Positions 1,696 to 15,337 of a stretch of 64,000 nt of DNA are shown piece after piece. The stretch lies in contig CAUJJC010000368.1 in the NCBI GenBank assembly GCA_963204975.1, forward strand, positions 1-64,000. Direction: 5' to 3'. This DNA comes from Verrucomicrobiota bacterium (GTDB taxonomy: Bacteria > Verrucomicrobiota > Verrucomicrobiia > Verrucomicrobiales > Verrucomicrobiaceae). Below the pieces are notes generated by a model. That model was not told the origin of the DNA, made no database searches, and was given only the letters and a program-made list of their open reading frames with translations. Numbering within the stretch: the stretch's first letter is position 1; each line of letters opens with the position of its first letter. Both the position numbers and the translations under genes were made by a program.

Positions 1696-3000
1696 TCAGA
1701 CCAGCATCAAAGCCGGGTTCTCCACCAGCTTGCGCATCTCGGCGAGGAAGCCGGCGGCGACGGCACCATCGACGACGCGGTGGTCGCCGCTGAGGCCGAT
1801 CCACATGCGCTGGCCGGCAACGATTGCGCCTTTGTCATCGACGACGGGCACGTTGCGAATGCTGCCCACGCTGATGATGGCGGCCTGGGGGGGATTGATG
1901 ATGGCGCTGAAGCTATCGATGCCGAAAGCACCGAGGTTGCTGACGGTGATGGTGCCGCCCGCGAAGTCATCGGGGGACAACTTCTTGTTCTTGGCGCGGG
2001 TGGCCATGTCTTTCACCGCGTCGCTGATCTGGAGCAGCGTTTTGGTGTCGGCCTCCTTGATAACGGGGGTGACGAGGCCGTCCTCGACGGCGATGGCGAC
2101 GCTGAGGCCGACGTGCTTGAACTTCACAATCGCATCGCCGTCCCATGAGGCATTGATCGCTGGCGTGGCCTGGGCGGCGCGGACGACGGCTTTGAGGATG
2201 AAATCGTTGACCGTGTATTTCTTGCCGCCGGTCTTCTCGTTCGTGGCGTTCAGATGCGCGCGGAACTTCATCAGCGGCGCGGCATCGACTTCCATGTTGA
2301 GGTAGAAGTGCGGGATCTGCGTCTTGCTGGCCAGGAGGCGGTCGGCAATGATCGTCCGCATACCTGAGACGGCCACGCGTTCATCATCGGGGCCGCAGAC
2401 GGGACGGATGGAGGGAGCCGCCTTGGCAGGGGCTGCGGCACCACCGGAGGCGGGGGCATTCTCCACATCAAAACGGACGATGCGTCCGCCAGGACCGGTG
2501 CCGACCAGGGCGGCGAGGTTGACCCCGCGCTCAGCGGCGATTTTGCGGGCGAGGGGAGAGGCTTTGACGCGGGCTCCGTTGCTGGCCGCTGCGACGTTCC
2601 GGCGATGCTGCGGGGCCGAGGGAGGGAGCTTCAAGCCAACGGCCACGGGTCCGCTGGTGCGGGTAGCTCCACCTGCGGGTTCGGCAGCGGCTTTGGCGGG
2701 CGCGCTGGCCTTGGCCTGGGCGGCGGCGATGAGTTCGTCGATGTTGGCGGGGGCTGCTTCATCCTCTTCCAGCACGACAGCGAGAGGGCTGCTGAGGGCG
2801 ACTTTTTGTCCGGCCTTGATCAGGAGCTTGAGCACCGTGCCTTCATAGGGACTGGCGTATTCCATCGTTGCCTTGTCCGTCTCGATATCTGCCACGACTT
2901 GCCCAGTTTTGAGCGCGTCTCCTTCCTTGATCAGCCACTTCGCAAGGGTGCCCTCGGTCATGGTGTCACTCAGTTTGGGCATCTCGATGAACTTGGGCAT
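1696..3000 (-). CDS. pdhC: Dihydrolipoamide acetyltransferase (pyruvate dehydrogenase E2)
   Basis: A 434-residue E2 subunit that transfers acetyl groups from lipoamide to CoA in the pyruvate dehydrogenase complex. Domains run in order. The lipoyl domain is residues 1-76, with the lipoylated Lys at about 43 in 'ETDKATMEY'. An Ala/Pro-rich hinge follows, then the E3/E1-binding domain (about 144-182, ending 'GTGPGGRI'), a second hinge and the catalytic domain, with active-site His407 and Asp411 in 'GDHRVVDG'. The start at 3000 is chosen because 'MPKFIEMPKLSDTM' is the normal lipoyl N-terminus; the frame extends 41 codons further without homology-like sequence. E1 and E3 genes are not adjacent, which is unusual for pdh operons. 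Confidence 0.95.
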   Translation of the reverse strand: MPKFIEMPKLSDTMTEGTLAKWLIKEGDALKTGQVVADIETDKATMEYASPYEGTVLKLLIKAGQKVALSSPLAVVLEEDEAAPANIDELIAAAQAKASAPAKAAAEPAGGATRTSGPVAVGLKLPPSAPQHRRNVAAASNGARVKASPLARKIAAERGVNLAALVGTGPGGRIVRFDVENAPASGGAAAPAKAAPSIRPVCGPDDERVAVSGMRTIIADRLLASKTQIPHFYLNMEVDAAPLMKFRAHLNATNEKTGGKKYTVNDFILKAVVRAAQATPAINASWDGDAIVKFKHVGLSVAIAVEDGLVTPVIKEADTKTLLQISDAVKDMATRAKNKKLSPDDFAGGTITVSNLGAFGIDSFSAIINPPQAAIISVGSIRNVPVVDDKGAIVAGQRMWIGLSGDHRVVDGAVAAGFLAEMRKLVENPALMLV

Positions 3001-3152
3001 GGCGGAAAGATGAGAGAGGGTTTTTTGAGGGGAATCGGAGCGCGAGTCTAGCCGAGGTTTGCTACGACTCAAACGGCCAATGCGCGACACATCGGCGATG
3101 GCTCGGAGCATTCTCCGAGCCACTTTCGTCGATCAACGAGGGATGTCCGAGA

Positions 3153-4070
3153 TCAACCGAGCAGCGGGCGCAGCATGTCGAGGATCTTCGGCACCTCGAC
3201 GAAGGGATCGTCCTTCTTCTCGTATTCGAGGGTGAACCAGCCCTGGTAATTGGCGTCGCGCATGATCTGAAGGACGCGCTTCACGTCGCTGGGTTCGCTT
3301 TCACCCTTCTTCGCGCCCTTGCGGGAGATTTCCATCTTTAGCTGAACATTGACGGCGTAGGGCGCGATCTTGGCGAGGTCGGCATAGGGGTCCTCGGTGT
3401 GGAAGTTGCCACTGTCGAGATTGATGCCCGCCCAGGGGCTGTTCGCCGCCTTGATCATGGTGACGAGATTGTCCGGCTCGGAGACGATGCCGCCGTGATT
3501 CTCAAGGCCCAGGAACACGCCCTTCGTGGCGGCGTAGTCGAGGCAGTGCTGGTAGGTCTCGGTGCAGATTTTGACGGCGTCCTCGTCGCTCATGTCCTTG
3601 GGCTTGGCACCAGCGAAGACGCGAATGTGCGAGCAGCCCATGATCGCGGCGTTGTCGATCCACTTCTTGGTGTAGGCGATTTGTTCGTCGAGCTTGGGTC
3701 CCTTGGGCAGCACGAAGGTATTGCCCACGGCGGTGCCGCAGAGCTGAACGCCACGGAGGTAAGCACGGCGGCGAAGCTCCAGCAGGAAGGCCTCGTCGCA
3801 GTTTGGTGGGAAGAAGTAACTCGTCACCTCGGCTCCTGGGACGTTGTTGTCCCCGCACCAGTCCACGAAGTCGAGAATGCTCCAGGGCTTGCGATCGCCT
3901 TTGGGCTTCTGCTCCTTGTCGCGCGACCACTGGAAGTATTCACGGAAGCTGTAGGCTGCCACGCCCAGCATCATGCGGCTTTTGCCAGGGCGATTGATGG
4001 GTTCGATGGCGGGCAGGGTTGTGACGCTGAGCGCGCCCAGCGAGGTGGTGAGGAAGTGGCGACGGTTCAT
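3153..4070 (-). CDS. Secreted sugar phosphate isomerase/epimerase-like TIM-barrel protein
   Basis: A 305-residue protein with a Tat-like N-terminus ('MNRRHFLTTSLGALSVTTLP') that fixes the start at 4070; the longer frame would run into the divergent gene. The body is a xylose-isomerase-like AP endonuclease 2 fold. Typical stretches are 'GAEVTSYFF', 'GCSHIRVFAGA', 'FLGLENHGG', 'GINLDSGNF' and the final 'GWFTLEYEKKDDP', whose Glu, His and Asp residues would bind metal. Such exported proteins are abundant in Verrucomicrobia and Planctomycetes and act on sugars, but the substrate cannot be read from the sequence. It is divergent from the esterase at 4147, sharing a 76-bp promoter region. Confidence 0.88.
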   Translation of the reverse strand: MNRRHFLTTSLGALSVTTLPAIEPINRPGKSRMMLGVAAYSFREYFQWSRDKEQKPKGDRKPWSILDFVDWCGDNNVPGAEVTSYFFPPNCDEAFLLELRRRAYLRGVQLCGTAVGNTFVLPKGPKLDEQIAYTKKWIDNAAIMGCSHIRVFAGAKPKDMSDEDAVKICTETYQHCLDYAATKGVFLGLENHGGIVSEPDNLVTMIKAANSPWAGINLDSGNFHTEDPYADLAKIAPYAVNVQLKMEISRKGAKKGESEPSDVKRVLQIMRDANYQGWFTLEYEKKDDPFVEVPKILDMLRPLLG

Positions 4071-4146
4071 GAGTGGAGCGACGATTTGAATTGGAAAGTG
4101 TGAGAGGATGGCCAGGATGAGCCCGACTTGAACAGCCTTATTTCTC

Positions 4147-5319
4147 ATGAACTTTCGCCTATCCTTGCTGCCCGTCCTGATCGCGCTGTCCTCCTTTGGA
4201 GCCGAAGTGCCTAAACTCCCCCTTTGGCCGGCTGGCGCGCCAGGTGCCAAGGGACAGACGGACAAGGACCAGCCCTGGGTGGATGTGTGGCTTGCACCGC
4301 AGGACAAAGCCAACGGCGCAGCGTTCATCGTCGCGCCTGGTGGTGGCTACGGCGGGCTAGCGGCAGACCACGAGGGCGTGCAGGTGGCGAAGTATTTCAA
4401 CGCGCTGGGCGTCTCCGCCTTCGTGCTGCACTACCGCCTTGGCAGCGCCGGTTATCATTACCCGATCGAACTCATGGACGTGCAGCGCGCGATTCGTCTC
4501 GTGCGGTCCAAGGCGGGCGAGTATGCGCTCGACCCCGAGCGCGTGGGCATCATTGGGTTCTCCGCTGGCGGACACCTCACCTCGATGGCCGCGACCTTGT
4601 TCGATGAGAAGCCCGAGGGCATGACCAACGACGCCGTCGATCAGCTCAGCGCCCGACCCACCGTCGCGTGCCCGACTTATCCCGTGATCTCGATGAAGGA
4701 TGAGTTCGGCCACATGGGCTCTCGCAAAAACTTGCTCGGTCCCAATGCCGACAACGCTGCGCTGATGGAGAAGACCACGACCTATCTCCAGGTGACCGAC
4801 AAGACGCCGCCGATCTTCATCTTCCAGACCGATGAAGACACCGCTGTGCCCGCCGAGAACGCCGTGAATTTCTACCTCGCCTGCCGCAAGCACAAGGTCC
4901 CGGCCGAGCTGCACATCTACAAGCCGGGTCCGCACGGCGTCGGCTTGATGCAGGGCGATCCAGTGCTCGGCACATGGCCGCAGCATCTCGCCGCATGGCT
5001 GCGCAATCAGGGCTTTTTCAGCACGGCGAAACGCACAGCCGTCACTGGCAAAGTGACGATCAATGGCCAGCCGGTGAGCTGGGGAGCAATCGCGTTTGAG
5101 AACGCTGACACCAACGCCCCGCGCCCCACCGCGCGGGTGATGAAAGGGAACTTCAAGCTCGATGCCGCGAGCGGCGCGGTGGTGGGCAAGCACAAGCTGC
5201 ACGTCACCTATTCCGCTGCCGATGTGCCGGGGCTCGACACGCCGGATGGCACCGCGCAGCAAACGGTCGAGGCCGAGGTAGTCGAGGGACAGCCGCTGGT
5301 GCTGGACTTGAAACGCTAG
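4147..5319 (+). CDS. Secreted alpha/beta hydrolase (BD-FAE/acetyl-esterase type) with C-terminal transthyretin-like domain
   Basis: A 390-residue protein. A signal peptide ('FRLSLLPVLIALSSFGAEV') is followed by an esterase domain with an oxyanion-hole stretch 'APGGGYGGLA', the nucleophile elbow 'GFSAGGH' (Ser139), an acid in 'FQTDEDTAVP' and the His in 'PGPHGVG'. This resembles acetylxylan and feruloyl esterases of plant-polysaccharide breakdown. From about residue 298 a beta-rich extension ('GKVTINGQPVSWGAIAFEN') looks like the transthyretin/carboxypeptidase-regulatory-like domains common in planctomycete-type proteins. Substrate and the role of the extension are inferred. It is followed by hom, 66 bases later. 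Confidence 0.88.
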   Translation: MNFRLSLLPVLIALSSFGAEVPKLPLWPAGAPGAKGQTDKDQPWVDVWLAPQDKANGAAFIVAPGGGYGGLAADHEGVQVAKYFNALGVSAFVLHYRLGSAGYHYPIELMDVQRAIRLVRSKAGEYALDPERVGIIGFSAGGHLTSMAATLFDEKPEGMTNDAVDQLSARPTVACPTYPVISMKDEFGHMGSRKNLLGPNADNAALMEKTTTYLQVTDKTPPIFIFQTDEDTAVPAENAVNFYLACRKHKVPAELHIYKPGPHGVGLMQGDPVLGTWPQHLAAWLRNQGFFSTAKRTAVTGKVTINGQPVSWGAIAFENADTNAPRPTARVMKGNFKLDAASGAVVGKHKLHVTYSAADVPGLDTPDGTAQQTVEAEVVEGQPLVLDLKR

Positions 5320-5385
5320 GTGCTCGGCGGCTTCCGAGCTTGCACACGCGCCGTCCTGGGGTCCATTAGCGACCCTTTTTCCACC

Positions 5386-6705
5386 ATGCCCAACGGTTCC
5401 CCTCCTCGTCCCATCAAAATCGGTCTCGCCGGACTCGGCAATGTGGGCGCGGGCGTCTTCAAAAACATCCAGAAGAACGCCGCGCTCATTCAGCAGCGCA
5501 CGGGAGCCGATTTGCAGATCGTGCAGGTGGCCGTTCGTGACCTGAGCAAGCCCCGCGATGTGGAGGTGCCTGCCGAGATGCTCACCACCGACTGGCGTGA
5601 GCTGGTGAACAACCCGGACCTGCAAATCATCGTCGAACTCATCGGCGGCACCGGCCAGGCTTTTGAACTCGTCAGCGCCGCGCTGAAGGCCCGGAAGATC
5701 GTGGTGACGGGCAACAAGGCCTTGCTCGCCGAGCATGGCAAAGAACTCTTCGCCCTCGCCGAGCAATGCGGGATGCCAATTTACTTCGAGTCCGCTGTGG
5801 CCGGGGGCATCCCGATCATTCAGGCGCTCCAGGAAGGTCTCGTGGGCAATCACATCCAGTCCATCCACGGCATCATCAACGGCACCTGCAACTACATCCT
5901 CACGCGCATGAGCCAGGCTGGCCTGACGTATGAGGCCGCGCTGCAGGAGGCCCAGGAGAAGGGTTTTGCCGAAGCTGATCCCTACCTCGACGTCAGCGGC
6001 TGGGACGCCGCGCACAAGGCCATCATCCTCGCCTCGCTCTCGTATGGGTTCTGGATTCCGCAGGCTGATGTGTATGTCGAGGGCATCGACAAGGTGAGCG
6101 CCACAGACATCGAGTTCGCCCGCCGCCTGGGCTACACGATCAAGCTCCTCTCCGTCATCCGCGCCGATGCCCAGGGCCGCGTGGAGGTGCGCACGCAGCC
6201 CTCCATGGTGCCGAACTCCCATGTGCTCGCCAGCGTCAGCGGCTCGTTCAATGCCGTCGTCGTGCAAGGCGACATCGTGGGCGAAACGCTTTTCTACGGT
6301 CGCGGCGCAGGCCAGGACCCCACCTCGTCCTCCGTCATCAGCGATCTCTGCGACGCCGCCGCCATTCTCATCTACGGCTTCCGTCACACGGGCTTCGTGC
6401 CCCACGGACTCTACGGCAAATCGAAGCCCATCGACGAGACCGTCAGCCACTACTACCTGAGGCTGCTGGTCAAAGACGAGCCCGGCGTGCTGGCGCAAGT
6501 CGCCACCGTGCTCGGCCAGCGCAACATCGGCATCAGCTCGGTGATGCAGCCCGAGGACCTCGCGTCCGAGACTGGCACAATCCCGCTTTTCCTCATGATT
6601 CATGATGCCTCGCTCGGCCAGATGCGCGCTGCTGTGGAAGCGATTTCCCAGCTCGGCTGCGTGGTCGAAGCGCCGAGCTGGATGCGCGTGGAGACGCTGG
6701 GTTGA
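5386..6705 (+). CDS. hom: Homoserine dehydrogenase
   Basis: A 439-residue NAD(P)-dependent enzyme that reduces aspartate semialdehyde to homoserine in threonine and methionine synthesis. It shows an N-terminal Rossmann motif ('GLAGLGNVGAGVF'), the catalytic core ('ANKALLAEHGKELF'-like stretch, 'INGTCNYILTRM', 'GFAEADPYLDVSGWDAAHK') and a C-terminal ACT regulatory domain (from about residue 360, 'LLVKDEPGVLAQVA'). The start at 5386 is the first ATG before the Rossmann fold. The last 23 codons and the stop are perfectly repeated 3.36 kb downstream, so this 3' end is probably an integration site. Confidence 0.95.
   Translation: MPNGSPPRPIKIGLAGLGNVGAGVFKNIQKNAALIQQRTGADLQIVQVAVRDLSKPRDVEVPAEMLTTDWRELVNNPDLQIIVELIGGTGQAFELVSAALKARKIVVTGNKALLAEHGKELFALAEQCGMPIYFESAVAGGIPIIQALQEGLVGNHIQSIHGIINGTCNYILTRMSQAGLTYEAALQEAQEKGFAEADPYLDVSGWDAAHKAIILASLSYGFWIPQADVYVEGIDKVSATDIEFARRLGYTIKLLSVIRADAQGRVEVRTQPSMVPNSHVLASVSGSFNAVVVQGDIVGETLFYGRGAGQDPTSSSVISDLCDAAAILIYGFRHTGFVPHGLYGKSKPIDETVSHYYLRLLVKDEPGVLAQVATVLGQRNIGISSVMQPEDLASETGTIPLFLMIHDASLGQMRAAVEAISQLGCVVEAPSWMRVETLG
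6634..6705 (+). repeat. Left copy of a 72-bp direct repeat (3' end of hom)
   Basis: This segment is identical base for base to 9991-10062 and ends exactly at the A of the hom TGA stop. Sequence diverges immediately outside; on the left only two further bases match, beyond one mismatch. It contains a perfect 10-bp inverted repeat, CCAGCTCGGC at 6648-6657 and GCCGAGCTGG at 6672-6681, separated by 14 bases. A duplicated gene 3' end bounding a foreign-looking segment is what site-specific integration into a gene end leaves (attL/attR). Confidence 0.9.
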
Positions 6706-7004
6706 CCCGAGAAGCACGAGTCCGAAATAGCAACAGCATGCCCATTCCATAGGTGGGCTAATCTCCCGCCTGGAGTCAACGGGAGCCTCTTGCTCTTGTC
6801 TTTGACAAGGGCTAGCAAAGCCCCAGACGCTGGCGGGCCGTAGCGAGCCAGGCAGTTCTCCTCGTGTTGAATACTTACAGTAACTGTCTGCAATCACTTA
6901 ACGCTCGCGTGCGCGCGATAGCCGGTTGGACATCAGGCACCACAGCCAAAACCTGATCAATTCGCAAAAAAATTTCTTCCATTTTCAGCCATAACTTCAT
7001 AAAA
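6706..7004. other. Non-coding left part of the islet with a stem-loop
   Basis: No convincing gene is seen in these 299 bases. A hairpin is present at 6792-6812, GCTCTTGTC and GACAAGGGC around a TTT loop (9 pairs, one of them G-T). It has no T-run behind it, so it is not a clear terminator. The final 60 bases are AT-rich and probably hold the promoter of the downstream surface-protein gene, but no convincing -35/-10 pair can be assigned. Confidence 0.4.
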
Positions 7005-9340
7005 GTGCAGCCGGTTAGTGAACTCCATTATTCATTAAGTAATTATGAAAGCACATCGGCGCACTCCCGCACTCCCGCACTCCCGCACTCCCTCACTAAG
7101 CGTTTTCTAGAACGCCAGCCTAGCCGACTGCTCGTTGGCTGGATTCAGATTGTCGCTTTGTTCGTATGGATTCTCCATCCCTGGTCCATTTCTAGGGCGG
7201 ACGAGCCTGATGAAGTGTGGACTTTTTATGCGGAGCAGACGTCGCTTTCGGTCGGCGCGACCGTGGTGGGTTCCAGCCATCCGATGAACCCTTTCAGCGG
7301 GCAATCACGGACCATTCGCGTGACACCGACACTCACCTCATGGGGTTACTATCAGAGCAACTACGGACATATTCAAAACGACGCCGTTGTAACGGTTCCT
7401 GCACCCCAGGCATGGGTGACTTCTAGCATCTCGCCAAGTAGTGATATAGGCTCGTCCGGTTATTTGGACATCACATTTACGCCTGATTTCACCTTCATGC
7501 CTTGGGTCACCATACCAATCGATATTACCTCTACAGATTCTAGCAGTGGAAGCAATATCGCCTACACGGCCCACGCTGAATTAACGTTCACGCCACCAGC
7601 AGCCGAGGATGAAACCTGGACGAAGGAATCAGACCAGTCCACGATGGTTACTTCTATCAGAGCTGACGATTACGATCTGCTTCCCGGCGAAACAACCAAC
7701 GTCTATGTCCATGCTGAGTTCCAGACATGGGAAGTTTGGCAGAGCGACTACGACCGCACGGAAATACGCAACCTAGAGTCGAGTCCGGCTTCCGGTGCTG
7801 TGTTGTCGCTCGACCGCCCTTCATTGTTTAGCGTTCCGGATGACCCTGTCGCCAAGTTCAATGGCCCAGGCACTATAATTAACGGGACGCCACTTCTCGA
7901 CGAAGCCGGCAATGGCTGGGGCACCTTCACGCGAGGTGAGGGATCCGATACTCTCTGCCGAATCTGGGCAACAGCCCAATATGGATTCATGGGCTCGAGT
8001 GCTTCGATTGACATAAGAAAGGCCATTGTGCAGGAGGTCTGGACACTGACAGGCACTGAGGGCAGCATCACCGCCGACATGACGGCGGATGGGTCCACAA
8101 CAGGCGTGGCACCCGGTGCGACGCGCGTGCTGTCCGCCGCAGTCACCTACGAAAGCTGGGAGGTCTGGACCAGTAACCTTGGCCATACGGAGCACCGCAA
8201 CCATGCCACCGCTCCGGCGGTGGGAGCCACCGTCGCCTGGTCGGTGGCGGGGGACGCCTCGCTTAATGTCAGCAATTCAACCACGGATTCGAACGGCCAG
8301 TCCTCCGCCTCGTTCACCATGGGCAGTGGCGACGCTGGCGTCCGTGCCGACGTGAGTTTTGTTGGGTGCAGCAGCGTGAGCACCTCACTGGGTTTTTCAC
8401 CGCCAGTTGTTGGAGAGTGGGTATGGGACCACAATGCCGCGTCGCTTTCCGTGTCGTTGAATAGCACCTCAGCGGCGGCCACGGCATCAATGAGCGGGCA
8501 GATAAGCTACAACACTTGGTCTGTTTACCGTCACACTGGGACCGGCGCGACAGAGGACCGGGATTATTCCACAGGAACGGCGGAAGGCGCGCAGCTCAGC
8601 TGGAGCTTCTCTGGCGATGCATCAGCCTCAGGCGACTCATCCTCCACACTGACGGGCGGATTCAATGGCAGTGCGACGCTGGGTGTCACTGCGTCCACCA
8701 TCACTGTTACCGCCAGCTTCGCTGGTTATTCCGCAACGGCTTCAACAGACGTTGCTGTTTGCACACTGGATTCGGATGGCGATGGATTTACGGATGCGGA
8801 GGAGGACAAGGATGGAAGCGATAAGAACGACAAAGATTCGGTTCCAGTGGTAACCATGATCCGTCAAGCATATGGCAGGTATTCGGCAGGTATTCCATTT
8901 CGTATGACAAAATTGAGAAGTGCATGCCCGTGCATATCAAGGTGACTTACACAACAAGTGAGGGTTTATCTTCGACTTCAAACGTAGCACTCGGGCTTGA
9001 CGACACTACAATTGCAAGTCAGCTAAACGTTAGCTTAAGCGCGATCCAATCCAAAGAGACGCAGTATGAATGGACAGTAACGTCTGACCTGTCTAGGCAG
9101 GATGATGACTCTGATATACTTAATCCGTAGGGATTGTGGAACTGCCCTGCAAGCCAATTTGTCCCAACAATTCCACCCGGTTGGAGTTTTTCAAAAATGG
9201 TGGTGCCAGCAACCGATTCCAAAATTGATCACGACATGCAAGTGACAGAAGGCACCGATACTGACGGACTCGCAACGAAGTGGACCACTGGTTACGACAC
9301 GTTCCAATGGTCCGCAGTATATGAAATCAAAAAGAACTGA
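7005..9340 (+). pseudogene. Multi-domain secreted/surface protein gene, broken by a frameshift and an in-frame stop
   Basis: The main frame (7005-8945, about 646 codons from a GTG) has a hydrophobic export segment ('IQIVALFVWILHPWSIS') ending 'RADEPDE'. At least three related beta-sandwich units follow, each with a 'W-x-VW-x(3)-Y/L...' pattern ('TWEVWQSDYDRTEIRN', 'SWEVWTSNLGHTEHRN', 'TWSVYRHTGTGATEDR'), then a calcium-binding-type 'DSDGDGFTDAEED'. Near 8850 the protein-like signal moves to the frame containing 8924 ('GRYSISYDKIEKCMPVHIKV'). That frame meets a TAG at 9128-9130 and continues protein-like to 9340 ('DTFQWSAVYEI'). One frameshift plus one nonsense codon indicate decay, unless a sequencing error is involved. 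An ATG at 7045 lies just before an octamer tract and is one repeat unit out of frame. Confidence 0.65.
7061..7092 (+). repeat. Octanucleotide tandem repeat (GCACTCCC) x4
   Basis: Four perfect copies of GCACTCCC are followed by a degenerate TCACT. The tract lies 13 bases after the ATG at 7045-7047. In the present length that ATG reads into a stop at about 7108; loss of one unit (8 bases) would place it in frame with the large downstream surface-protein frame. This is the geometry of a slipped-strand phase-variation switch. Confidence 0.85.
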
Positions 9341-9343
9341 GCC

Positions 9344-9973
9344 ATGAAAACCAGAAACCAACTCTTCCTCAGCTTCTTACTTGTTTGTTCATGTCTGGCT
9401 CGCTACGTGGCACATGGCCAGGAAGCTATATCAGCGGAAAAAATAAAAGAGAGTATCGCGCCGTTTTATAAGGCACTCCCAAAACGTGATGTCGAACTAA
9501 TCAATCATTATGTGGTTCCCTTCGTCCGTTCGGAACAGTCCTATGTCTACGCAGGTGCATGGTCTGCTGTGAAAGCGGAATCTAAGTGGGAGCTTCAAAA
9601 TTTGATTCCGATGGTGGTGTCGCTCCCACACGAAAAAACGGCAGCCCAAGGCTACCTTGTGATATCCAGTTATGGGCCAGAGCAATCGGGGGATGCCAAC
9701 AAAAGTTCACCATTCATTCCTATTCTCACAAGAATGGACGTTTGGTTGCTTGGCAACGAATCTCCCAGAGTTGTGCCGATGGAATTTCTTAGTTCAAGTG
9801 GTGTGAGTATTACCTCATTGATACCAGGCCCACCTTCAACCGACACATACAAAACATTGGAAGAAGCTGTCAATGCGGCAAAGAAGTTTGATGACATTAA
9901 CATCTTGATGAGAAATCGAGCACAGACAAGGATGTTGGGAACTCGCAGTCAGACAGCGAAAGAGAAAAAATGA
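9344..9973 (+). CDS. Hypothetical exported protein encoded in the hom islet
   Basis: A 209-residue protein beginning three bases after the last frame of the broken surface-protein gene, so probably co-transcribed. It has a clear signal peptide ('QLFLSFLLVCSCLARYVAHGQE') and a soluble remainder rich in Lys and Ser ('VELINHYVVPFVRSEQSYVYAG', 'TYKTLEEAVNAAKKFDDIN') without recognised motifs. Base composition is visibly AT-richer than the neighbouring core genes, consistent with acquisition together with the islet. No function is assigned; a partner or accessory of the surface protein is only a guess from position. Confidence 0.6.
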   Translation: MKTRNQLFLSFLLVCSCLARYVAHGQEAISAEKIKESIAPFYKALPKRDVELINHYVVPFVRSEQSYVYAGAWSAVKAESKWELQNLIPMVVSLPHEKTAAQGYLVISSYGPEQSGDANKSSPFIPILTRMDVWLLGNESPRVVPMEFLSSSGVSITSLIPGPPSTDTYKTLEEAVNAAKKFDDINILMRNRAQTRMLGTRSQTAKEKK

Positions 9974-9990
9974 CTGCTTATAGGACAGCG

Positions 9991-10062
9991 GTGGAAGCGA
10001 TTTCCCAGCTCGGCTGCGTGGTCGAAGCGCCGAGCTGGATGCGCGTGGAGACGCTGGGTTGA
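9991..10062 (+). repeat. Right copy of the 72-bp direct repeat (displaced hom 3' end)
   Basis: Identical to 6634-6705. Here the sequence is not attached to a hom reading frame; it is preceded by AT-rich islet DNA and followed by the secretin promoter region. It therefore looks like the original hom 3' end displaced by the insertion. The same 10-bp inverted repeat occurs at 10005-10014 and 10029-10038. Confidence 0.9.
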
Positions 10063-10113
10063 GGCTCAGCTACACGGCGGAGCCAGATATTATGGAAAAT
10101 TAAAATAGTTTGC

Positions 10114-10141
10114 TTGCTAAAGCATTGTCAGCCTATATAAT
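10114..10141 (+). promoter_or_regulatory. Putative sigma-70-type promoter of the secretin gene
   Basis: TTGCTA (10114-10119), a 16-base spacer and a perfect TATAAT (10136-10141), 20 bases before the ATG at 10162, in a locally very AT-rich stretch. The -35 element matches the consensus at four of six positions. It lies just outside the islet's right repeat. Confidence 0.5.
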
Positions 10142-10161
10142 TATGGTAATTATCTTTATAT

Positions 10162-12621
10162 ATGGCTTCTGCACTTGGTCGTCTCCACTTTCAACGCGTC
10201 CTCTTCCGGGTCATCGCTCTCGGAATGGTAGCAGCGGCTGTCCGCTGGCTCCCCGCTCAGACCTTCACGCCAGCGACTCCTAGCGGCACCACCGCCCCGG
10301 CCATTCAGCCACCGAGTGCCACACCCGGCACGGACGATGGTGCAGCCACCTGGAAGGTGAATTTCCCGAACACCCCGATTCAGGGCATCATGCCAGCCTA
10401 TCAGCAAATGACGGGCAAAAAGATGATCCTCGATGGCTCGCTTCAGGGCGAGAATTTGAAAATCATGAGCCCACGCCCGCTGACGAAGGCACAGGCCATC
10501 GCGTTCATCGAAGCGTCCTTGCTCCTCAACGGCTACGCCATCATCAAGGTGGACGATGAGACCGTGAAAATCATCCACCACAGCGGCGGGAAGGACCCGT
10601 CGGCGGAAGGCATTCCCGTCATCAACTCCATCCGCGATCTGCCCCAAAACGAAGAGATCGTGCATTTCATCCTGCCGCTTCAGCACATCTCTCCCGAGGA
10701 GGCGACGAAGGCCTTCACGACCGTGGTCAAACTGCACGCCTACGGTGCGATCACAGCGGTGAACAACACCTCCAACGTCATCATCAAGGAAAACACCGCG
10801 ACCATTCGCAGCATCTACGAACTGGCCCAGATCATCGACGTTCCGCCAGCCGACATTGCTAATGAACTCATCGAGCTGAAGCGCTCGGACGCCGAGGGCA
10901 TCGCGGAAATCATTCAGGACATCTACGAGGAAAAGGAGAAGTCATCAGTGCCCTCGGCCCCACAGTCGGTGAGTGGCAATACACCTCCAGTTCCAGGCGC
11001 AGCACCCGCTGCTGGCGCTGCCGCAGGTGCAGGAGGCGCGAACACCTCCAACACCAATCCGACAGCCGCCAAGGTAAAAATCATCCCTCACCGCCGCACT
11101 AATTCCATCCTCGTCATCGCCCGCCCGGTGGACATCGAGAACATCAAGGCCTTGGTTTCCAAACTTGATCGCGAAGGCGGTGAATCGAACTTCCTGGAGC
11201 GCAAGCTCCGCTACATGCCGGTCACAGAGTTCCTTGCAGTCGCCAGAGATGCATTGGCTCGTGATACGGATATCGAGAGCGACGACTCCTCCAGCGGAGG
11301 CAGCAGCAGTGGGTCGTCTTCGCGCAGTTCACGTTCATCGTCGGGCCGCAGCAGTCGTAGCAGCCGGTCGAACAACACACCCAGCACTGACAATGCCCTG
11401 GCACGCAACAATGGTTTCCAGAACGGAGGCGGCTATGGCAATGGGATGGGTGGCGGAGGCAGCAGCATCGGCTCAAGCTCATCACTTGATGATCCCGAAG
11501 ATGCAGGAGCACCTGAGTCCGTGGTGGTGGGCAAGACCTTGCTGATCGCAGACACGAGAGCCAACACCTTGATCGTCAATGGCTCGCCCGAGCACATCGC
11601 GGTCGTGGACAAGCTCATCGAGCGCATGGATGTGCGCCCGCAGCAGATCTACATCAGCACGATCATCGGTCAGCTCAATCTGGGCGGCACCTACGACTAC
11701 GGCATCGACCTCCTGCGCGGGCTGGATGATTTCACGCTTCGTTCACAGCCTCGTGATGCAACGAATACCGGCACGAACACGGGGACCAACACCGGAACCA
11801 ATAACGGCACGAACACGGGAACCAATAACGGGATCAATACTGGCACGGGCATCGGCACCACCGCCGGCCAGATCCTTGCCCAAGCCGCCGGCACTCCAGG
11901 CCTGATCGAGATGCCGCTCAACCTCACAGGTTTTGAGTGGGACAAGTTCAACCTCTACGGCCAGATCGGATCGCTGGGGCGTTACCTGCACCTCCTTGAG
12001 GGCAACAAGAACTTCACCGTCCTCAATCGTCCCTCGATGACGGTGCGCAACAACCAGAAGGCCGTCATTGCGAACGGTCAGCGAATCGCCGTTCCCGTCA
12101 GCACCTTGAGCAATGTAGGCTCCGTGGGCAGCACCGCAGCGGTGAGTTCCAGCATTGATTATCGCGATGTGGTGCTCCGCCTGGAAGTCGTGCCGCTCAT
12201 CAACAGCGATGATGAGGTGACGCTCCGAATTCTCCAGGTGAATGACAACGTCGTCGGCCAGCAGAACATCGGCGGCAACAGCATTCCCACCATTGGCACC
12301 CAGGAAATCGAGACCACGGTGTCCGTCAAAGATGGCGAGACCGTCGTGCTCGGCGGCCTGATCACGGAGCGCGAGCAGCATACCGAGAACGGCCTCATCT
12401 TCCTGCGCCGCATCCCGGTGGTGAAGCATCTCTTTAACCGCACTGAGAAGAGCAAGACTCGCGAAGAACTGCTCATCTTCATCCAACCCAAGATCATCCG
12501 CAGTCAGGACCCGCTCGATCTCCCCAACAGCATCGAGGCAGGCCGTTCCAAGGTGTATGCCGAGAGCATTCGCTTCGCCACCGAGACTCCGGAAGTCCGT
12601 CGCGCCGAGCCGGCGCAATAA
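10162..12621 (+). CDS. Type II/IV-like secretin (GspD/PilQ family)
   Basis: An 819-residue outer-membrane secretin. A signal peptide (about 1-33) is followed by an N0-like domain ('TPIQGIMPAYQQMTGKKMIL'), then N1/N2-type repeats ('FILPLQHISPEEATKAF', 'IIPHRRTNSILVIA', 'LIADTRANTLIVNG'). The C-terminal secretin core holds 'FTVLNRPSMTVRNNQKAVI', 'VSVKDGETVVLGGLI', 'RIPVVKHLFN' and 'ELLIFIQPKII'. Two low-complexity inserts stand out: a Ser/Arg-rich stretch (about residues 375-415) and a Thr-Gly-Thr-Asn repeat (about 534-566). No pseudopilin, ATPase or platform genes are adjacent, so the rest of the machine is elsewhere. It is followed after 12 bases by a sensor kinase. Confidence 0.92.
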   Translation: MASALGRLHFQRVLFRVIALGMVAAAVRWLPAQTFTPATPSGTTAPAIQPPSATPGTDDGAATWKVNFPNTPIQGIMPAYQQMTGKKMILDGSLQGENLKIMSPRPLTKAQAIAFIEASLLLNGYAIIKVDDETVKIIHHSGGKDPSAEGIPVINSIRDLPQNEEIVHFILPLQHISPEEATKAFTTVVKLHAYGAITAVNNTSNVIIKENTATIRSIYELAQIIDVPPADIANELIELKRSDAEGIAEIIQDIYEEKEKSSVPSAPQSVSGNTPPVPGAAPAAGAAAGAGGANTSNTNPTAAKVKIIPHRRTNSILVIARPVDIENIKALVSKLDREGGESNFLERKLRYMPVTEFLAVARDALARDTDIESDDSSSGGSSSGSSSRSSRSSSGRSSRSSRSNNTPSTDNALARNNGFQNGGGYGNGMGGGGSSIGSSSSLDDPEDAGAPESVVVGKTLLIADTRANTLIVNGSPEHIAVVDKLIERMDVRPQQIYISTIIGQLNLGGTYDYGIDLLRGLDDFTLRSQPRDATNTGTNTGTNTGTNNGTNTGTNNGINTGTGIGTTAGQILAQAAGTPGLIEMPLNLTGFEWDKFNLYGQIGSLGRYLHLLEGNKNFTVLNRPSMTVRNNQKAVIANGQRIAVPVSTLSNVGSVGSTAAVSSSIDYRDVVLRLEVVPLINSDDEVTLRILQVNDNVVGQQNIGGNSIPTIGTQEIETTVSVKDGETVVLGGLITEREQHTENGLIFLRRIPVVKHLFNRTEKSKTREELLIFIQPKIIRSQDPLDLPNSIEAGRSKVYAESIRFATETPEVRRAEPAQ
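11761..11859 (+). repeat. In-frame 12-bp repeats coding for Thr-Gly-Thr-Asn in the secretin
   Basis: Degenerate copies of an ACN-GGN-ACN-AAY unit, some shortened or altered, encode a run of TGTN/NNGTN. The tract is in frame, so unit gain or loss would change only the length of a loop in the secretin, not the frame. Confidence 0.75.
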
Positions 12622-12633
12622 CGAGTCCAGCAC

Positions 12634-14097
12634 ATGTTGACCGCCAGCACAGCGCTAGACATTCGCACGGCCCCAGCCGCGCAACCCGATGTCAAGATCG
12701 TGCGCGGACAACCTGAGTTCTCGGATCAACGCCTGGCAGAACGGTTCAAGCAAGAGGACCGCGCGCTGACACTGCGCAACGTGCGCAACCTATGCTGGAT
12801 CGCGATGGTCCTGGTCCCTGCCGCCGTGGTTCTCGATTGGTTCGCCTATCCAGAGTTGCTGGTGGAGTTCACGCTGCTTCGCCTCACTTGCACCGCTTGT
12901 CTGGCGATCATCCTTTACACTTCCCGCACGGCCATTGGTCACAGCTACTACCGCGCGATGACCGTGATCGTGCCGATGACGCCCGCGTTCTTTATCAGCC
13001 TCATGATCAAGCAGGCCAATGATCCTGGATCAGGCTACTACGCCGGGCTCACACTGTGTCTGGTCGCCATCGGCTTCATGTTCCACTGGACGTTTCGCGA
13101 GAGCGCCATCGCACTCTTCCTGACGATCGCATTCTACCTTGCTGCCAATGCGCACGCGCTGCGCGCCGGAGTGCCCGCCACCACCATGGCTGCGTTCGTG
13201 AACAACTGCGTGTTCATCATGCTCAATGGTGTGGTGATTCTCAGCGGCAGTTTTTACCATCATCGCATCCGCGTCCGTGAGTTCCTCAATCGCGTGGAGG
13301 TCGAGCAGCAGAAGGAAGAACTCAAAGATCGTAACGAAGAACTCACCAGCACGCTCCGGCAACTGCGCGAGACCGAGAACCAGCTATTCCAAAGCGAAAA
13401 ACTCGCATCCCTGGGCCGCATGAGCGCTGGCATTATCCACGAGATCAACAACCCGCTCAACTTCACCAATCAGGCGCTCTTCGTGCTCAAGAAGAAGGGC
13501 AAGCACATGGCCGAAGCCGAGCGCGAGAACTTTGATCGCATCATCGCCGACATCAAAGAAGGCATCGGCCGCGTCTCGTCCATCGTGACGGATCTTCGCT
13601 GCTTCTCGCATCCTGACTCAACCTCCGCTCACCTCATCGACCTCTACGACGCCGTGCATAACGCCGTGCGCTTGATGGGGAAGGAACTCAAAGACAACGA
13701 GGTGAACCTGGATGCTTCGTTGCCGCGTGGATTGCAGCTCCTGGGGGATCGCAATCAGATCATTCAGATCCTGATCAATCTGATTCAAAACGCAATTGAT
13801 GCCATGCAGCAGAGCGCGGTTCGCTCCATCGAGATCAAGGCGATTGAAACCGAGACGCGCGTTGAGTTGAGCGTCAAGGACACCGGCTGCGGCATTCCCG
13901 CAGAGAATCTGCCAAAGGTGTTTGATCCCTTCTTCACCACCAAGGATGTGGGTGAAGGCATGGGCATGGGCCTCAGCGTGAGCTACCGCCTCATGCACCA
14001 GATGCGGGGCGGCATCGAAGTAGTCAGCACACCTGGTGCAGGCACCATTTTCACCCTTTGGTTCCCACTTTTCACTCCCTCTCCCGACGATGATTGA
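12634..14097 (+). CDS. Membrane-bound sensor histidine kinase
   Basis: A 487-residue kinase. Several membrane helices cover about residues 50-225, then a coiled-coil linker rich in Glu/Lys ('VEQQKEELKDRNEELTSTL'). The dimerisation domain has the H-box 'AGIIHEINNPLNF' (His269). The ATPase domain has an intact N-box ('IQILINLIQNAIDAM'), G1 ('DTGCGIP'), F ('DPFFTTK') and G2 ('GMGMGLSVSYRLM') boxes. It autophosphorylates and should signal to the response regulator whose start overlaps its stop by 8 bases (14090-14097), implying translational coupling. The stimulus is unknown; the upstream secretin suggests an envelope or secretion role. Confidence 0.92.
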   Translation: MLTASTALDIRTAPAAQPDVKIVRGQPEFSDQRLAERFKQEDRALTLRNVRNLCWIAMVLVPAAVVLDWFAYPELLVEFTLLRLTCTACLAIILYTSRTAIGHSYYRAMTVIVPMTPAFFISLMIKQANDPGSGYYAGLTLCLVAIGFMFHWTFRESAIALFLTIAFYLAANAHALRAGVPATTMAAFVNNCVFIMLNGVVILSGSFYHHRIRVREFLNRVEVEQQKEELKDRNEELTSTLRQLRETENQLFQSEKLASLGRMSAGIIHEINNPLNFTNQALFVLKKKGKHMAEAERENFDRIIADIKEGIGRVSSIVTDLRCFSHPDSTSAHLIDLYDAVHNAVRLMGKELKDNEVNLDASLPRGLQLLGDRNQIIQILINLIQNAIDAMQQSAVRSIEIKAIETETRVELSVKDTGCGIPAENLPKVFDPFFTTKDVGEGMGMGLSVSYRLMHQMRGGIEVVSTPGAGTIFTLWFPLFTPSPDDD

Positions 14098-15337
14098 TCT
14101 TGGCCGAAAACATCGAGCTGCTGTGCTCTACGTGGATGATGAAGCCAAGGCCTTGCACTATTTCCGCGAGGCCTTCGAGGATGACTTCACCATCTACACG
14201 GCGAACAACGCAGCGGAGGGGTTCTCGATCCTCATGGAGCGTGGTCAGGACATCGGCGTGCTGATGACGGATCAACGAATGCCTGGGGAAAAAGGCGTGG
14301 ACCTGCTGGAGAAAGCAAGGCGTCTCAATCCCAACCTCGTGCGCATTCTCGTCACGGCCTACACGGACTATGATACCGCTGTTGATGCGGTGAATTCGGG
14401 CCGCATCTACCGTTACTTGCACAAGCCGTGGGACCCGGAAGAGATGCACCTCACGCTGGAGCGCGCGACGGATCTTTACTCAGCTCTCGTTGAGCGTGAA
14501 CGTTTGTTAGGCGAAAAGCTGGACACGATTCGTCATGTGATCATGTCGGACAAGGTTTCCGGACTCGGGATTCTGGCGGAGGGCCTCAATCATCATCTGC
14601 GCAACGCGCTGACGGTGGTGAGGGCGTTCGTCGATCTGGCACCGCTGAAAGTTCGCGAGGAGCTGCATGATCAGTTGCCTGCGGACACCAGCTTCTGGAC
14701 CGACCTGCATGCTCAAGCGCAGGATCAGATGCAGCGCATTCAAACGGTTCTCAACCGTCTAGGCGAAGCCTCCCAGATCCGCGACTTCCCACGCGAGGAC
14801 TTCGTTCATCCTTTGGATGTGCTTGATGAAACCGCAGCTCTTTATCTCCAGTCATTCGAACTCAAGGGCATCCACCTCACGCACTACGTTCATCCCAGCG
14901 TGCCGCCGATTCGCGTGAACGCGGAACGTTTCACCCGCCTGTGGCGTCTGCTCCTCTCAGATCAACTCACGCACCTGTCTCGCGGCGATCAGGTCCATAT
15001 CCATGCGGAGCCGTGCAGCGATTCCTCGGATCGTCCAGCGATTCGGTTCGTCGTTCAAGACACGGGTGCCTGGGCGAACCGTGACAACGTAGGCAATCTC
15101 TTTGATCCCTTCTTTGTCCGCACCCACCAGCCTACCGAGATCGGCGTCAATCTCACCGCGTGTTACGTGATCGTGCATCAGCACGGCGGCAATATCGAAG
15201 CCTCTCCGCGCGAGGGTGGGGGCCTCAACATCGTGATCACGATCCCCGTCGATGCCCAGGAGCCCACACCTGACGCGGATGCCTACTTTCACCGTCTGCT
15301 TGAGCACGAGCGCCGTTGGAAGGAACGGGACAGTTGA
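14090..15337 (+). CDS. Response regulator fused to a degenerate histidine-kinase-like module
   Basis: A 415-residue protein; the start at 14090 is just before 'MIDLGRKHRAAVLYVDDEAK'. The receiver domain (about 8-125) has the acidic pocket 'YVDDE', phospho-acceptor Asp61 in 'MTDQRMPG', Thr in 'LVTAYTD' and Lys in 'LHKPW'. A kinase-like part follows, with an H-box resembling 'LNHHLRNAL' (His168) and a late ATPase-like region ('VVQDTGAW', 'LFDPFFVR', 'VHQHGGNIEASP'). The N-box asparagine is absent ('WRLLLSDQLTHL') and the G2 box is altered ('IGVNLTACYVI'). ATP binding is therefore doubtful, and it may be a pseudokinase output partner of the upstream kinase. It is translationally coupled to that gene. 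Confidence 0.88.
   Translation: MIDLGRKHRAAVLYVDDEAKALHYFREAFEDDFTIYTANNAAEGFSILMERGQDIGVLMTDQRMPGEKGVDLLEKARRLNPNLVRILVTAYTDYDTAVDAVNSGRIYRYLHKPWDPEEMHLTLERATDLYSALVERERLLGEKLDTIRHVIMSDKVSGLGILAEGLNHHLRNALTVVRAFVDLAPLKVREELHDQLPADTSFWTDLHAQAQDQMQRIQTVLNRLGEASQIRDFPREDFVHPLDVLDETAALYLQSFELKGIHLTHYVHPSVPPIRVNAERFTRLWRLLLSDQLTHLSRGDQVHIHAEPCSDSSDRPAIRFVVQDTGAWANRDNVGNLFDPFFVRTHQPTEIGVNLTACYVIVHQHGGNIEASPREGGGLNIVITIPVDAQEPTPDADAYFHRLLEHERRWKERDS

Follow-up and report, generated by a model that had tools for sequence, protein, structure and literature searches.

Insertions that duplicate a gene end

Insertion with long target duplication was first described for restriction-modification (R-M) genes of Helicobacter pylori by Nobusato, Uchiyama, Ohashi and Kobayashi (Nobusato et al. 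2000, cited in PMC3031569, PMC1643837 and PMC4978471). As portrayed in these citing papers, it leaves a segment that is absent from a relative and bordered by long direct repeats that are single in the empty genome, without a transposase or integrase; association with R-M genes is frequent and not a strict requirement. A related outcome has been obtained in E. coli, where a molecule homologous to the 3′ end of lacZ was cut, trimmed and recircularised and a RecA-dependent single crossover gave lacZ-end duplications of 109–950 bp (PMC3240628). Gene 3′ ends are also targeted by integrative elements and genomic islands; these restore the gene end and leave a repeat at both borders, with one copy in the empty site, but they encode an integrase and their sites are reused by related elements.

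The locus described here lies behind hom, the homoserine dehydrogenase gene of amino-acid biosynthesis, on contig C368 of assembly G000 (369 contigs, 87.6% complete), which represents an uncultured member of the Verrucomicrobiaceae; the window is the whole 64-kb stretch of this contig that was analysed. The locus shares with long target duplication, as far as the citing papers describe it, a segment absent in a relative, long direct flanks that are single in the empty genome and the lack of a transposase or integrase, and R-M cargo is found at a second G000 locus (contig C34). Unlike the cases summarised there, the cargo at hom is a broken Ig/TSP3-like gene with an orphan gene and not an R-M pair, and the duplicated stretch terminates precisely with a stop codon. 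With the trimmed-circle crossover of E. coli, or homology-facilitated illegitimate recombination, it has in common a duplicated gene 3′ end, an arbitrary trimmed border and no special enzyme, although the lacZ duplications were longer and laboratory-selected, whereas that at hom is 72 bp and natural, and a role for RecA at hom is our proposal. The restored gene end, the repeat at both borders and the single copy in the empty site recall integrative elements; unlike these, the islet has no integrase, and no reuse of the site was found among 56 relatives. The hom islet is most likely the product of a known but little-studied type of insertion rather than a novel mobile element that brings its own enzyme. 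The original prediction's suggestion of a new class of non-autonomous cassette finds no backing, given the missing recombinase, the lack of recurrence in 56 relatives and an islet gene without relatives.

The hom-end repeat and the islet-free site

Intact hom (5386–6705, forward strand) encodes a protein of 439 aa (Pfam Homoserine_dh, 4e-64; NAD_binding_3; ACT) with 99% amino acid identity to the Hom protein of G001 (MAG JAEUHN010000040, Verrucomicrobiaceae), the sole other available genome of the genus. Its last 23 codons plus stop (6634–6705, forward) recur as a direct repeat at 9991–10062 (forward), where the right copy adjoins the native downstream flank that aligns to G001. On rechecking, the original prediction described this repeat accurately: the two 72-bp copies have no mismatch, identity stops in both at the final base of the hom TGA, and nothing else of hom is duplicated. 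If the next 3 bases upstream are included, the match grows to 75 bp and contains one mismatch, and the 5′ border is an arbitrary point within hom. The copies are spaced 3357 bp apart and enclose an islet of 3285 bp (6706–9990).

Throughout the 6.18-Mb assembly the 72-mer occurs at two sites only, both in the window, where the hom ends form the sole repeat pair of at least 26 bp (spacing at least 300 bp). In about 1.11 Mb drawn from further G000 contigs, one more pair of repeats (50 bp or longer, no more than 20 kb apart) was found, so that the scan, which covered about 1.17 Mb of the assembly, gave two such pairs, the hom end and a comEA-like locus on C34. This rarity excludes a chance origin of the 72-bp pair. 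The core of the 72-mer was not found in the viral contigs searched, and an Rfam scan of 5300–10400 returned no match and hence no known RNA target. A perfect 10-bp inverted repeat with a 14-nt spacer (CCAGCTCGGC ... GCCGAGCTGG; 6648–6681, forward) lies within the repeat and is absent from G001; its significance under synonymous randomisation is weak (P = 0.016), too weak for it to be taken as a recombinase core. The right copy, read in the hom frame, is part of a 30-codon open frame (9970–10062, forward) whose ATG overlaps the stop of the preceding 209-aa gene and which is probably fortuitous. Several direct repeats of 29–86 bp, spaced 0.6–2 kb, occur close to the contig end (L101 11391–13510, about 71390–73510 on C368) and probably represent a repetitive gene or array.

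G001 has a single hom end and no islet, and its secretin gene starts 97 bp past the hom stop, which provides the empty site that the original prediction had proposed to look for between hom and the secretin gene. Its alignments to the window (1700–6703 at 93.9% and 9988–15332 at 85.0% identity) overlap at this one hom end, which is identical to the G000 copies at 56 of 72 positions. The secretin gene (10162–12621, forward; Pfam Secretin, 1e-42), whose product shares 94% amino acid identity with the G001 copy, is accordingly the native downstream neighbour of hom. This empty site backs the prediction of an insertion that lies behind hom and leaves the gene undamaged; the arrangement is shared by no relative, and the repeat is not explained by any larger duplication. 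Gain of the islet by insertion appears to be the simplest and best-supported reading of the two genomes, and the locus offers a clean natural pair of occupied and empty sites for a gene-end-duplication insertion without a mobility enzyme, with a second case in the same genome.

Loss is the converse of this reading: an islet ancestral in the genus could have been removed from G001 through recombination between two hom ends, which would produce precisely the arrangement seen in G001. The genus is represented by just two available genomes, and the decay of the first islet gene implies that the islet has some age. However, a hom-end copy before the secretin gene would still require an earlier insertion, and the perfect identity of the repeats together with the foreign composition of the islet suggests a recent arrival; we regard ancestry with loss as very improbable. 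An artefact of assembly or binning, in which an unrelated molecule was joined into the contig by way of the hom end, deserves as little credence. G000, from which the arrangement is read, is fragmented and incomplete, but a false path would need another molecule with the same 72-mer at both ends of the islet, which would itself have to be an islet in circular or tandem form that includes a hom end, and the islet is internal to a 74-kb contig.

Divergence around the islet and possible routes of entry

Comparison with G001 revealed a sharp jump in divergence at 6609, 25 bp before the repeat starts, which the original prediction had missed. The 3′ tract of hom (6609–6705, forward) differs at 23 of 97 positions, as against 60 of 1223 upstream, and none of 2000 codon shuffles gave an equally strong change point. 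The rise runs on through the secretin, kinase and regulator genes: third-codon divergence is 10–20% left of 6609 and 35–45% in the hom end, secretin, kinase and regulator, where the regulator figure was read in a shifted register and the high column therefore comes first. Other segments in the stretch compared are mostly 91–94% identical. The islet thus sits at the edge of a mosaic block, and on these divergence patterns 6609–15332 appears to have been exchanged by recombination, in either G000 or G001, with a lineage that is more distantly related.

Such an exchange could itself have delivered the islet, if a block from a distant congener (hom end, islet, second hom end, secretin, kinase and regulator) had replaced the resident one with its left crossover at 6609. 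Ordinary homologous recombination would then bring in an islet already flanked by repeats, and both the sharp change at 6609 and the contrast in third-codon divergence would follow. This shifts the origin of the repeat to the donor and does not explain it, the exchange may have occurred in G001 instead, and no donor genome is known; we think replacement of the block improbable. The repeat itself has a further property that any account must accommodate: 16 of its 72 positions differ from G001, yet both G000 copies are identical, so that both would stem from one recent source. Identity despite so many differences from the sister species is better explained by a copy of the target itself or of a conspecific donor than by a foreign attP.

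The reading we prefer, with our confidence in it evenly balanced, is insertion with long target duplication, in which a circularised fragment bearing a trimmed hom end integrated through a single crossover by RecA. The donor would have been a DNA fragment, derived from this strain or one very close to it, that carried the islet immediately after a hom 3′ end; its hom arm would have been trimmed to the last 72 bp, the trimmed fragment circularised, and the circle would have entered the chromosome through one RecA crossover inside the 72 bp. The outcome would be an intact hom on the left, the islet right behind its stop and a 72-bp hom remnant before the old downstream flank. Gain rather than loss, the circular intermediate, RecA and the donor are all elements that we infer.

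Support for a single crossover comes from the islet-free site in G001, the absence of a recombinase from the islet and the second long-duplication insertion in G000. This route would require no recombinase in the islet, would keep hom intact and would leave identical copies; it would also explain the 5′ border, whose arbitrary position inside hom is as expected for a trimmed arm. The jump at 6609 marks the spot as a recombination junction, and DNA uptake is possible because ComEC- and DprA-type genes are present. Several observations count against it. The end of the repeat exactly at the stop codon is more naturally explained by a gene-restoring attachment site, and under a single crossover it requires an assumed donor with the islet directly behind hom. 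No donor with hom followed by the islet was found, whether by searching 37 relatives for islet DNA or the family, phylum and GTDB scans for the 209-aa protein. In addition, a stretch of 72 bp offers little length for RecA exchange and falls short of the duplications seen in E. coli (PMC3240628). The break at 6609, situated 25 bp away from the repeat, calls for another event or a more complicated one, and the perfect inverted repeat within the 72-mer is a further, weak counterargument.

The main rival to the single crossover is a trans-acting integrase. The repeats would then be the attL and attR of a non-autonomous element, as originally predicted, and a tyrosine or serine recombinase encoded elsewhere would have joined a hom-end attP to attB and so restored hom. 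The geometry agrees well, with hom restored, the repeat ending exactly at the stop and one copy in the islet-free site. A length of 72 bp is within the usual range of att sites, the core contains the 10-bp inverted repeat, and among the matches listed G000 has 11 resembling tyrosine recombinases that could act in trans. Other findings weigh against it. No recombinase or transposase was found among the islet proteins searched (Pfam, NCBIfam), in agreement with the original prediction, and the islet DNA had no real match in 37 relatives, where only short, mostly repeat-derived matches appeared. A search for other segments bounded by hom ends, also proposed originally, gave no second hom-end copy in any of 56 relatives, at a sensitivity that is limited where short ends have diverged, and no exact repeat of at least 20 bp linked the hom end to downstream DNA in the 20 genomes whose downstream regions were inspected. 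Synonymous differences would be expected in an attP brought from another host, whereas the two copies are identical where G001 differs. Only one integrase match among those listed lies near hom (G048, about 7 kb off), which we guess to be a Xer-type housekeeping recombinase, and our literature search found no report of hom as an attachment site. We consider the attachment-site reading rather unlikely; its weight and that given to the single crossover are matters of judgement and were not computed.

Islet content and a second insertion

The interior is AT-richer than its surroundings, as predicted, with 52.4% GC against 62.8% in the left flank and 58.0% in the right, and the final islet gene falls to 45.6%. 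Two gene units are present, each with an N-terminal hydrophobic stretch as judged by eye, which upholds the predicted export of accessory proteins in part, since the first unit is broken. This gene (7005–9340, forward), for a secreted protein resembling bacterial Ig and TSP3 domains, survives as open pieces at 7005–8945, 8924–9130 and 9134–9340; its frame is shifted by an 11-bp tandem duplication (8874–8895) and contains an in-frame TAG (9128–9130). Relatives were identified in nine other genomes of the family with E-values down to 2.8e-32, a sporadic distribution (10 of 68 genomes, G000 included). Apart from one internal repeat in L100, their loci have no flanking repeats of at least 26 bp, and the Ig/TSP3-like family is therefore not generally bounded by repeats. 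At the start of the gene, 4.8 copies of the 8-bp unit CGCACTCC form a tandem array (7060–7097, forward) that is possibly a slippage or phase-variation tract; sequence similar to this array also occurs in G012 and G018.

The second gene (9344–9973, forward) encodes a 209-aa protein with an N-terminal signal-like stretch and no Pfam or NCBIfam match. No relative was found in the family sample, the phylum sample, a GTDB pattern scan, plasmids or phages, and an AlphaFold model made without an alignment was unusable (mean pLDDT 39).

The second case in G000, missed by the original prediction, is an R-M pair on C34 (L135 1–2770) consisting of a HindIII-type restriction endonuclease and an N6/N4 methyltransferase. 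The pair is flanked by two copies of a comEA-like helix-hairpin-helix gene, one shortened and one full, with 106 bp of 94% identity and 98 bp of 78% identity between them, and, like the islet at hom, it lies directly behind a stop codon, here that of the left copy. The 3′ part of this left copy is about as far from the G000 gene as from its G001 counterpart (78–80%), as if the cargo had arrived attached to a foreign copy of the gene end. The equivalent interval in G001 contains other coding DNA and is thus not a simple empty site. With its R-M cargo, this second insertion matches the published recombinase-free pattern.

Should such insertions turn out to be common, they would account for the entry of small accessory islets into genomes with neither an integrase nor a transposase involved, and gene-end direct repeats alone would be no proof of an integrase-dependent island. 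A broader proposal is that Verrucomicrobiaceae have recurrent recombinase-less cassettes of R-M pairs or secreted proteins behind host stop codons, with the gene-end piece as the sole mobility signal and movement by host recombination or a trans-acting integrase; this is speculative, and we think it improbable. In another member of the family (MAG JAQGPI010000503; L070 3400–3600), the same secretin–kinase–regulator operon is found behind an apparent gcvP end instead of hom, which indicates that this operon changes neighbours.
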